A program made the position numbers and the translations under genes. The notes under the pieces were generated by a model. The model did not search any database. It was not told the DNA's origin and worked only from the letters and a program-made list of their open reading frames with translations. From Halosegnis marinus (GTDB taxonomy: Archaea; Halobacteriota; Halobacteria; Halobacteriales; Haloarculaceae), in assembly GCF_029338355.1 (NCBI RefSeq), contig NZ_CP119802.1:496001-560000 (forward strand): a stretch of DNA of 64,000 bases, given 5' to 3'. Below are positions 45,067 through 48,728 of the stretch, in pieces. Numbering within the stretch: position 1 is the stretch's first letter; each line of letters begins with the position of its first letter.

Positions 45067-45483
45067 CAGGACGCCGTCGGCGCCGTCGAAGCGGTCGGGG
45101 AGGTCGGCCAGTTCCCAGAAGCCCGCCGCTGTGTAGAAGGCGCGCGCGCCGTCGTCGTCGGCCGCGACGGTGACGCGCAGTTGGTCGTGGTCGTACCCGT
45201 CGGCGAGCGCCGCGACCAGCCGGCGGCCGTACCCCTCGCGGCGGACGCCCGGCGCGACGGCGAGTTCGGCGAGGTAGACGACGCTCGGGTCGGCGTCGCG
45301 CGCGCCCGGCACGGCGAGCGCGTACCCCACCACGCCGCCGTCGTCGGCCACGAAAGCGTCGCCGCCGATACCCCGGACCTCGGTGTCGAAGGCGGCTTCG
45401 AGCAGCGCGGGCGCTCGGTGGTCGAGCAGTTTCTGGAGTTCGCGGACGGCGGGGCGATCGGCGGCGGTCGCGGGGCGTATCAC
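45046..45483 (-). CDS. GNAT family N-acetyltransferase
   Basis: A 145-residue GNAT with VYLAELAVAPGVRREGYGRR (about 67-86) as the acetyl-CoA loop and the C-terminal GARAFYTAAGFWEL motif near 114-127. It begins at GTG 45483 (IRPATAADRPAVREL), overlapping the DUF92 stop as GTGA. Its last 21 bases overlap the end of dnaG on the opposite strand, the longest tail-to-tail overlap in the window. Substrate unknown. Confidence 0.86.
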   Translation of the reverse strand: MIRPATAADRPAVRELQKLLDHRAPALLEAAFDTEVRGIGGDAFVADDGGVVGYALAVPGARDADPSVVYLAELAVAPGVRREGYGRRLVAALADGYDHDQLRVTVAADDDGARAFYTAAGFWELADLPDRFDGADGVLLVRDLS

Positions 45484-46835
45484 AGCAGCCACGAGAGCGC
45501 CCCGCACGCCACCGCGCCCGAGAGCGTGGCGAGGAAGTTCACCCCCTGATTTCCGACCCGACCCCCTTCGAGCGTCGCCCCGAGCAGGCTATCGACGGTC
45601 ATCCCGACGAAGCCGCCGAGGACGACGAGCCCGGCCGCGACCGGCCCCAGCTCGAAGAACAGGGCCGCGATGCCGGCGATGAGCGCCGCGCCGGCGAGCC
45701 CGGCGACCTCCCCCTGCCACGTCACCGCGCCGTCGGTGCCCGGCTCGACGCGCTCGAACGTCGTGACGAGGCGGGGGGCGTCGAAGAGGCCGCCGAACTC
45801 CGAGGAGAACGTGTCGGCGAGCGCGGCGGCCACCGCGCCGGCGAAGGCGAACCGGAACACGGGGGCGTAGGCGGGAGCCATCCCCTCGCTGGCGGTGAAG
45901 GCGACGACGGCCGCGAGCGCCGCCGCGGAGTTGGCGAGGACGTTGCCCGAGCCGCGGGCGCCCTCGTTCGCCTCCGCGATGCCGCGGTCGGTCTTCTCGT
46001 CGTAGCGGTACTTCGAGGCGAGCCCCCCCAGCCCGAAGAACGTCACGAGCAGGGCGAACCAGCCGTAGCCGCCGAGGACGATGGCGAACAGCGCGAGCAG
46101 GACGCCGGTGAGCATCCCGGCGACGCTAGCCGTCCCGAGCGCGTACGCGACGTAGCCGAGCAGGACGGTGACGGCCAGCCCGACCCCGAGCCGCGTCGGC
46201 GGGACGGTCACCTCTAGCCCGGCGAACAGCCACAACACCAACGCGACGGAGACCGTCACGAGCGGGTCGTCGCGGGCGAACAGGACGGTCCGCAGCAGCG
46301 CGGCGGCGACGGCGGCCGTCGCGGCGAGGAAGACGAGCGTGGGCGCGGGAACCGCCTCGGGAGGGTAGGAGAGGTCCGTCACGCCGTAGCCCACGCCGAG
46401 CGCGGCGAGGCCGCCGACGAGCCCCCACGCGAAGCCGACGCCGGCGAACACCGCCGTCGCGAGGAACTCGTGGGGGCGGCGCGCCTCGACGACGGCCGCG
46501 CCGACCGTGCCGCCGACCAGCGCGAAGACGCTCACGGCGAAGGCGACGGGCGGGAGCGACGACCCGGCGGCGAGCGCGGCCAATCCCGCCCCGGCGAGCG
46601 CGAAGCCGCCGAGGCCGAACAGCCGCCCCTCCTCGTAGTCGGTGCGCCGCGCGAACAGGTCGAACAGCGGCCCGTCCGGCCCGGCGACGGCCAGCGCGAA
46701 GCCGGCGACGAGGAGGAAGGGGGCCGCGGCGACGACCGCGGCGACGCGAGCGTCCGGCTGCCCGGCGGCCGCCGCCGCGACGAGCGAGAGGACACCCACG
46801 GCCGCGAAGGCGGCCGCACGCCTCACGTCAGACAC
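45480..46835 (-). CDS. DUF92 polytopic membrane protein
   Basis: A 451-residue protein with 11-13 predicted helices. The DUF92 signature lies in the C-terminal half: GGYGWFALLVTFFGLGGLAS then KYRYDEKTDRGIAEANEGAR (about 255-295), followed by ALADTFSSEFGGLFDAPRLV and VGMTVDSLLGATLEGGRVGN. The family includes plant VTE6 (phytyl phosphate kinase) and TMEM19, so a role as a kinase of a prenyl phosphate or in lipid-carrier metabolism is plausible. It lies divergent (89 bases) from the short cis-prenyltransferase homologue, which fits. The start is GTG 46835. The N-terminal 200 residues are an extra haloarchaeal membrane region. Confidence 0.85.
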   Translation of the reverse strand: MSDVRRAAAFAAVGVLSLVAAAAAGQPDARVAAVVAAAPFLLVAGFALAVAGPDGPLFDLFARRTDYEEGRLFGLGGFALAGAGLAALAAGSSLPPVAFAVSVFALVGGTVGAAVVEARRPHEFLATAVFAGVGFAWGLVGGLAALGVGYGVTDLSYPPEAVPAPTLVFLAATAAVAAALLRTVLFARDDPLVTVSVALVLWLFAGLEVTVPPTRLGVGLAVTVLLGYVAYALGTASVAGMLTGVLLALFAIVLGGYGWFALLVTFFGLGGLASKYRYDEKTDRGIAEANEGARGSGNVLANSAAALAAVVAFTASEGMAPAYAPVFRFAFAGAVAAALADTFSSEFGGLFDAPRLVTTFERVEPGTDGAVTWQGEVAGLAGAALIAGIAALFFELGPVAAGLVVLGGFVGMTVDSLLGATLEGGRVGNQGVNFLATLSGAVACGALSWLL

Positions 46836-46924: not shown

Positions 46925-47533
46925 GTGGGCCTGTACGACCGCTACCTCGCCGCGCGCCTCCGGGTCGCCGACGGGACGCTCCCCGAGCGCGTTGCGCTCG
47001 TCATCACGGAGCGCGACCTGCTGGAGCCCGGCGCGTACGACACCCTCCGGGAGTTCCTCGGGTGGGCGTTCGACTACGGCGCGGAACGCGTCACCGTCTC
47101 TGTGAGCGTACTCGACGCCGACGCCGTGCCGACCCTCCGGCGGACGCTGGACGACCTCGACGCCCCCCGCCCGGTCGCCGTCCGCGGCCCCGACGACGAC
47201 GAACCCGCCGACGCCCCCGTGCAGGTCGCCATCGGCCTCGGCGGGCGCGAGGAGTTCGCCACGGCCGTGCGCCGGGTCGCGGAGGCCGTCGAGGCCGGCG
47301 ACCTCGACCCCGACGAGGTGGACGAGGCCGAGATAGAGGAGCGACTGCTCCTCCCCGAGCCGCCGGACCTGCTCATCAAGACGGGCGCCGAGCGGCTCTC
47401 CGACTTCATGATATGGCAGTCCGTCTACTCGGAGCTCTACTTCACCGACGTGAACTGGCGCGACTTCCGGAAGCGCGACTACCTGCGCGCGCTCCGGGAG
47501 TACCAGGAACGACAGCGGCGGTTCGGGCGGTAG
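46925..47533 (+). CDS. Non-catalytic cis-prenyltransferase homologue (candidate NgBR-like subunit)
   Basis: A 202-residue homologue of undecaprenyl diphosphate synthase. The N-terminal catalytic segment (xxMDGNRRWA in the family) is replaced by ALVITERDLLEP at about 24-35, losing the essential Asp, Asn and Arg pair. The C-terminal half is well kept: LLIKTGAERLSDFMIW, QSVYSELYFTDVNWRDF and the terminal RRFGR, which holds the RxG motif that crosses the dimer interface and contacts the diphosphate. This is the pattern of the accessory subunit (NgBR/Nus1) of heteromeric enzymes. It starts at GTG 46925 and lies tail-to-tail with the long homologue. Subunit role is inference. Confidence 0.8.
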   Translation: MGLYDRYLAARLRVADGTLPERVALVITERDLLEPGAYDTLREFLGWAFDYGAERVTVSVSVLDADAVPTLRRTLDDLDAPRPVAVRGPDDDEPADAPVQVAIGLGGREEFATAVRRVAEAVEAGDLDPDEVDEAEIEERLLLPEPPDLLIKTGAERLSDFMIWQSVYSELYFTDVNWRDFRKRDYLRALREYQERQRRFGR

Positions 47534-48445
47534 CTAGTCCGCGGCCCCCTCCACGCCCGCCTCTGCCAACTCCTCCTCCGAGAGCGACCCCCGAAGCCGG
47601 TCCAGCACGCGCCGGGCCTCCGGCAGGTCCGTCCCCCGGAACGAGGAGACGAGCGCGAGCGCCCGCCGGGCGCGCGTGCGCCGCCACGACTCCTCGCGGG
47701 CCTCGTAGGTGCGGATGGCCCGCAGGAAATCGACGCGGCGGAACTCCGGCCAGTACGGCGTACAGAAGAACACGGCGGCCTCGTTGCCGTTCGCGTGCCA
47801 CGGCAGGAAGTTCGAGGTACGCTCGTCGCCGCCGGTGCGGATGATGAGGTCCACGTCGCGCGTCGGCCGGGAGGCGAGCCGGCGGTCCAGTTCGGCGGCG
47901 TCGATGTCGGCGGGCGAGAGTCGTCCGGCCGCCACGTCGCGGGCGGCGGCGCGGGCGGCGTTGAGCAGTTCGGCCCGACCCCCGTAGGCGAGCGCGACGT
48001 TCAGGCGGAGGTCGTCGTAGCCGCGGGTGCGGCGGTCGGCGTAGGCGACGGCGTCGCGGACGCGCTCCGGGAGCCGTTCCACCTCGCCGATGGCGCGGAT
48101 GCGGACCCCGTTCTCGTGGACCTCGTCGCGGTCGGCGAAGCCGCGGAGCTTCGACTCGATGAGGTCGAACAGCGCCTCGCGTTCGTCCTCGGGGCGGTCG
48201 AAGTTCTCCGTGGAGAAGGCGTAGAGCGTGAGTTCCTCGACACCGAGGTCGCGACACCACCGGAGCATCGCCTCGGTGGTCTCCGCGCCGGCGCGGTGCC
48301 CCTCGGTCTTCTCCTTGCCGCGCGACTCGGCGTAGCGGCGGTTGCCGTCCTGGATGACGGCGACGTGGCTCGGCGCGCCCCCGAGTTCGCGCTCCAGGAG
48401 GCGCTCGTAGAGGGAGAGGGCACGACGGCGGAGCCACCCGGTCAT
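47534..48445 (-). CDS. uppS: Cis-prenyltransferase (UPP synthase family), catalytic subunit candidate
   Basis: A 303-residue cis-prenyltransferase. The catalytic N-terminal motif is present ([19 protein letters not shown]; Asp33, Asn35, Arg36-Arg37), with GHRAG near 49-53, [18 protein letters not shown], and [14 protein letters not shown] near 210-223. The C-terminal RxG motif of homodimeric enzymes (RRFGG in bacteria) is absent; in its place is [15 protein letters not shown] and a helical tail. It makes long-chain polyprenyl diphosphate for the glycosyl carrier lipid. Its stop directly abuts that of the short homologue (TAG|CTA). ATG 48445 gives the normal N-terminal helix. Confidence 0.9.
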
Positions 48446-48499
48446 GGTCGCGGGTGCGCGAGCGCCGACAATCAGTCTTGTGACCCGACTCCCCGGTGG

Positions 48500-48510
48500 A
48501 TTTTTATACG
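48500..48510 (+). promoter_or_regulatory. TATA-like promoter of the cold-shock gene
   Basis: The run ATTTTTATACG ends a GC-rich stretch and is centred about 28 bases before ATG 48534, a strong match for a leaderless haloarchaeal promoter and one of the clearest in the window. It lies between the divergent uppS and csp genes. Confidence 0.7.
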
Positions 48511-48533
48511 AGAGTGGTCTCCTTCCGACTGCA

Positions 48534-48728
48534 ATGGCGACAGGCAAGGTTGACTTCTTCAACGACACCGGCGGCTACGGCTTCATCGAGACCGAGGACT
48601 CCGACGAGGACGTCTTCTTCCACATGGAGGACGTCGGCGGCCCGGACCTCGAGGAGGGCCAGGAAGTCGAGTTCGACATCGAGCAGGCCGACAAGGGCCC
48701 GCGCGCGACGAACGTCACGCGGCTGTAA
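48534..48728 (+). CDS. cspA: Cold-shock domain protein
   Basis: A 64-residue single cold-shock domain. RNA-binding motifs RNP1 (GYGFIET, about 14-20) and RNP2 (VFFHM, about 27-31) are both intact, as is the opening [11 protein letters not shown]. It binds single-stranded RNA or DNA and is usually abundant in haloarchaea. It is strongly acidic for this family, in keeping with halophily. ATG 48534 is set by the nearby promoter; upstream in-frame starts are inside the promoter. Confidence 0.95.

Follow-up and report, generated by a model that had tools for sequence, protein, structure and literature searches.

Two abutting genes in the window, i.e. the whole stretch of 64,000 nucleotides of Halosegnis marinus DNA analysed here, are predicted to encode the two subunits of a single heteromeric cis-prenyltransferase. 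The probability of this reading is put at about 0.92. The products are termed S and L. Motif complementarity, orthology, co-occurrence and fold were observed, and the two-subunit enzyme is their best explanation; we also infer the physical pairing of S with L, their mutual dependence, the product length and the pathway. Heteromeric enzymes of this kind have been described before, both in archaea and in eukaryotes. The new points are that the S/L pair is nearly universal in Halobacteria, that its two genes run convergently, that DUF92 is linked to S, that the end of S has exactly the NgBR geometry, and that L is multiplied in some genomes.

S and L are the only PF01255 genes in the 2.81 Mb genome. 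S matches the C-terminal half of the profile only (positions 116-219, 2.1e-28), L the whole profile (1-216, 3.4e-69). AlphaFold single-chain models show the cis-prenyltransferase fold for S (pLDDT 86) and L (pLDDT 88), and family matches and folds together place both proteins in the cis-prenyltransferase family. S is intact and conserved throughout the class, which rules out a pseudogene. The two genes are convergent, and their TAG stop codons abut with 0 bp in between. Located on opposite strands, they cannot share one transcript; an S-L operon is thus ruled out, and the adjacency represents a conserved linkage. A cold-shock protein gene lies at 48444-48728 on the plus strand. The open reading frame called mechanically begins at 48444 and overlaps the start of L; translation probably begins at an ATG near 48534 (MATGKVDFF).

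Table 1. Features of the S/L locus in window coordinates.
Feature	Position	Strand	Basis or remark
DUF92 (PF01940, arCOG02245) integral membrane protein, putative polyprenol or lipid kinase	45480-46835	-	PF01940 match 2e-54
S, predicted accessory NgBR-like, RxG-bearing cis-prenyltransferase subunit	46925-47533	+	202 aa; GTG start codon at 46925, stop codon 47531-47533
Degenerate catalytic segment LVITERDL of S, replacing UppS segment IIMDGNGR	46997-47020	+	sequence; alignment columns of E. coli D26/N28/R30
Retained core IWQSVYSELYF of S	47411-47443	+	sequence; alignment columns of E. coli W207/Y211/E213
C-terminal RRFGR of S: RxG and one residue, then stop	47516-47530	+	sequence, alignment
L, predicted catalytic DHDDS-like cis-prenyltransferase subunit	47534-48445	-	303 aa; ATG start codon at 48445, stop codon 47534-47536
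Motif [11 protein letters not shown] of L, putative isopentenyl-diphosphate site	47807-47839	-	sequence, alignment
Catalytic motif IQDGNRR of L	48335-48355	-	sequence, alignment

S and L sequences of about 85 genomes, covering the class and the phylum, were aligned, and conserved columns were scored against the numbering of E. coli IspU (UppS). The sequence-only reading had claimed that S lost its N-terminal catalytic motif, with VITERD in its place. The alignment confirms the loss: DGN or DGH occurs in 0 of 87 S sequences, and the window S reads VITERDLL at the position of the Asp-Gly-Asn motif. Other residues or gaps occupy the S columns of D26, N28, R30, R39, H43, N74 and R77; an aspartate appears in the D26 column of a few S, never within DGN. 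The core WQ..YSELYF and a terminal RRFGR holding RxG had been described as kept, and both are. The window S contains WQSVYSELYF and ends in QRRFGR followed by the stop codon. Across the alignment, S retains W207, Q208, Y211, E213 and F216 in 88-89 of 89 sequences (W in 88, Y and E in all 89), and 86 of 87 S end in R-x-G-x-stop. The remaining S has lysine for arginine. Such an S, ending in RKFGK, stands at locus L118 of a genome (G311) with two L and an MM_0014-type enzyme.

L was said to keep IQDGNRR and the 11-residue motif of Table 1 and to lack RxG, and this also holds. The window L includes VIQDGNRRY and the 11-residue motif, with no RxG at the homologous C-terminal place. DGNRR is found in 90/90 L sequences, and RxG is absent from the C-terminal helix of all 90 read. 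L shows no variation at D26, N28, R30, S71, N74, R77, R194, R200 and S202 (92/92 each), and has two residues inserted next to the E213 position. The motif split is present in each pair read, throughout the phylum, and is therefore not due to chance. Bacterial UppS (E. coli IspU) has the same fold and catalytic residues as L, but combines DGN and RxG in one chain, whereas the haloarchaeal pair splits them over two chains. The window pair does not fit a homodimeric UppS, the motifs of which would have to reside in a single protein.

The same division is seen in human DHDDS/NgBR (NUS1) and yeast Rer2/Nus1. The catalytic subunits contain DGNRR and lack RxG, like L; the accessory subunits NgBR and Nus1 lack the catalytic Asp and carry RxG one residue from the C-terminus, like S. 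In the human complex, NgBR extends its C-terminal RxG tail over the interface so that it lies in the active site of DHDDS (PMC7573591), in agreement with the earlier proposal that RxG acts across the dimer interface. Backbone atoms of the NgBR RxG bind the S2 phosphate, and RxG stabilises the S1 loop. The terminal carboxylate of NgBR (K293, one residue after the Gly) contacts R37 and R85 of DHDDS (PMC7573591). The corresponding residues of L, R36 and R84, are invariant in the alignment, and the terminal geometry of S equals that of NgBR, with one residue after the RxG Gly before the stop. The phylum-wide pattern and the human structure (PMC7573591) support the view that complementary motif loss reflects an NgBR/DHDDS-type division of labour, and that the window pair would work like the human one.

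Profile searches against PDB chains gave human DHDDS as the best match of L (3.9e-74), with E. coli UppS slightly weaker (8e-72). The DHDDS match covers 4-280 including both terminal extensions, the UppS match only 24-256. L has a DHDDS-like N-terminal helix and a C-terminal helical extension. The C-terminal extension of DHDDS makes a dimer of heterodimers (PMC7573591), so that an S-L heterotetramer is possible by analogy. As a point against the two-subunit reading, the profile of S is nearer to bacterial UppS (5e-35) than to NgBR (1.5e-11), and the top 50 matches in the fold comparison of S are UppS-type and DHDDS chains, with no NgBR among them. NgBR has an N-terminal membrane domain, while S has no room for one. 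The S model opens with a single helix of 13 residues, followed at once by the first strand, and a membrane-anchoring domain of the NgBR/Nus1 type is absent, no domain being added in the 202 aa.

In the proposed mechanism, L would hold the substrate site, with the Mg-binding Asp33 and Arg residues for the allylic diphosphate; its RTGG-ER-TSN motif would form the isopentenyl-diphosphate site. S would neither bind nor turn over substrate, but pair with L via the usual dimer face. The C-terminal R-F-G-R of S would enter the active site of L and there organise the two diphosphate sites, a part played by NgBR in the human complex. The enzyme is expected to add isopentenyl units repeatedly to an allylic primer. 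The long-chain product would be converted into polyprenyl or dolichyl phosphate, on which N-glycans for surface proteins, including those of the S-layer, are assembled. Formation of the polyprenyl carrier for N-glycosylation is the predicted natural role, because HVO_2318 is listed together with proteins of the N-glycosylation pathway that are affected in a rhomboid-protease mutant of Haloferax (PMC9263693) and because S/L is, by the PF01255 census, the only cis-prenyltransferase system in most haloarchaea.

A maximum-likelihood tree separates S and L into two clades that span the whole phylum. A branch with SH-aLRT support of 100 sets all S apart, and another with support of 90 does so for all L. 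Both clades contain the same major taxon groups; S follows L in this respect, which rules out a lateral gain of S. The M. acetivorans-type S and L lie within the S and L clades, and the MM_0014-type enzymes constitute a third clade (SH-aLRT 100). Genomes similar to Methanosarcina with three PF01255 genes (genus g121) encoded one S, one L and one MM_0014-type enzyme in those read; the third PF01255 gene of one of them (G407) is the sequence printed for PDB 7vq9. The MM_0014-type was found in Methanosarcinaceae and in G294. Neither window gene is of this type: S belongs to a separate clade, and L sits outside the MM_0014 clade.

Heteromeric cis-prenyltransferases had been said to occur in some archaea, and for M. 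mazei this is documented. MM_0618 and MM_1083 have been demonstrated to assemble into a heteromeric enzyme with C45-50 products (Emi et al. 2019, as cited in PMC8131916), and according to the citing paper the product is likely for a glycosyl carrier lipid (PMC8131916). As judged from the tree, the census of Methanosarcina genes and this literature, the window pair is the haloarchaeal orthologue of the demonstrated M. mazei heteromer. The orthology rests on Methanosarcina genomes and the published gene census. The M. mazei pair shares with the window pair the motif division and the proposed glycosyl carrier lipid role. The S and L genes are unlinked in Methanosarcina, and close and convergent in most haloarchaea fetched; Methanosarcina has an MM_0014-type enzyme in addition to S and L, whereas haloarchaea are mostly without a third enzyme. 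A heteromeric cis-prenyltransferase has reportedly been described in Archaeoglobus fulgidus as well.

L might instead be active by itself as a UppS-type homodimer, with S only modulating activity, chain length or localisation. All catalytic residues are indeed in L, and L outnumbers S in some genomes (three L, one S in G228). MM_0014-type enzymes act as homodimers without RxG (PMC8131916). MM_0014 and its counterpart MA1831 belong to the same family and phylum as S/L and likewise miss the RxG Arg, but they have RWGG where L has RTGG and form the separate clade. However, the phylum-wide retention of RxG in S, with hardly an exception, and its absence from every L read are difficult to reconcile with an independent L. 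S and L are co-retained near one-to-one, and the orthologous M. mazei pair forms a heteromeric enzyme according to the citation above. An L homodimer is therefore considered improbable.

The S/L arrangement is near-universal in Halobacteria and no peculiarity of one genome. The sequence-only reading had proposed a survey of haloarchaeal co-occurrence, and the outcome favours the pair: all 294 Halobacteria genomes searched contain a PF01255 gene, 293 of them at least two, and 283 exactly two by our own count. In a listing of 77 genomes, the pair consists of one full-length match (L) and one C-terminal match (S) wherever both are listed. At least two PF01255 genes are present in 60 of 62 genomes sampled from the rest of the phylum. 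The PF01255 search found none in two genomes of about 91% completeness (G300 and G308; family f18, genus g85), from which S and L are both absent; co-loss or very divergent genes are possible causes. Single partners were found in a 99%-complete draft with S and no L found (G072) and in a genome with L and no S found (G357); a third (G356) contains L, with a fragment of S where a contig ends. All three are drafts of more than 100 contigs, and an assembly gap likely accounts for the missing partner in G072 and G357.

If the two-subunit enzyme is correct, the two haloarchaeal genes, each labelled an undecaprenyl diphosphate synthase by family models, represent one two-part enzyme. Neither S nor L should then work alone, and the annotation would have to be corrected in nearly all haloarchaea. 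The genetically tractable Haloferax volcanii, which has neither peptidoglycan nor endoplasmic reticulum, would become a model for the division of labour affected in human DHDDS / NUS1 disease. The two-subunit design would date back to the origin of the phylum or before.

Adjacency had been taken to strengthen the case. S and L do abut in the window, but the argument was overstated. All 59 close S-L pairs of the first set of loci, the window included, are convergent (43 from Halobacteria, 16 from the rest of the phylum), with gaps of -54 to about 8,000 bp. In nine haloarchaeal genomes, about a fifth of those fetched, S and L are unlinked, which concerns some genera (e.g. G013, G017 and G033). 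Co-transcription thus lends no support to the pairing, while the linkage as such is old and conserved. A second S-L pair of G196 (L167), fetched after the first set, has both genes on one strand and is not convergent.

The gene upstream of S in the window encodes the DUF92 protein and is divergent from S, with 89 bp between the starts. The same divergent arrangement was found at 39 of 51 haloarchaeal S loci, although the sequence covered reached just a few hundred bases upstream of S, and the linkage is also seen at loci with L elsewhere. According to Makarova et al., the one conserved context of the DUF92 family, which is kinase-like by HHpred, is uppS (HVO_2318); they suggested a kinase reaction within isoprenoid biosynthesis (PMC5898192). 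The alternative that S lost catalysis, is no synthase subunit and serves some unrelated purpose, e.g. as a DUF92 partner, could draw on this linkage, which persists where S is unlinked from L, but is hardly credible given the near-absolute conservation of WQ..Y.E and the terminal RxG, the only known job of RxG in completing a cis-prenyltransferase active site (PMC7573591), and the complex demonstrated for the M. mazei orthologues as cited above. A heteromeric synthase in which S has a double role is a speculative extension, doubtful at present. S would be RxG donor and, via DUF92, membrane link; together with L and DUF92 it would make up a single module at the membrane that produces and recycles the carrier, and multiple L would compete for one S. 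DUF92 would then be a putative CTP-dependent polyprenol (phosphate) kinase bound by S, standing in for the membrane anchor that NgBR itself carries.

Additional copies occur in a few genomes. G061 and G068 encode two L each (extra copies L152 and L151) with a single S found, G228 three L (L169-L171) with one S, and G196 two S-L pairs (L167, L168). The division of motifs is kept in all extra copies read. Several L sharing one S would resemble yeast Rer2 and Srt1 with Nus1. A third enzyme of the PF01255 family is missing from most haloarchaea. Locus L150 (G002:C1:478925-479599) encodes a third, divergent cis-prenyltransferase with DGH for DGN and an RRNEGR end, lying in a 622-codon open frame.
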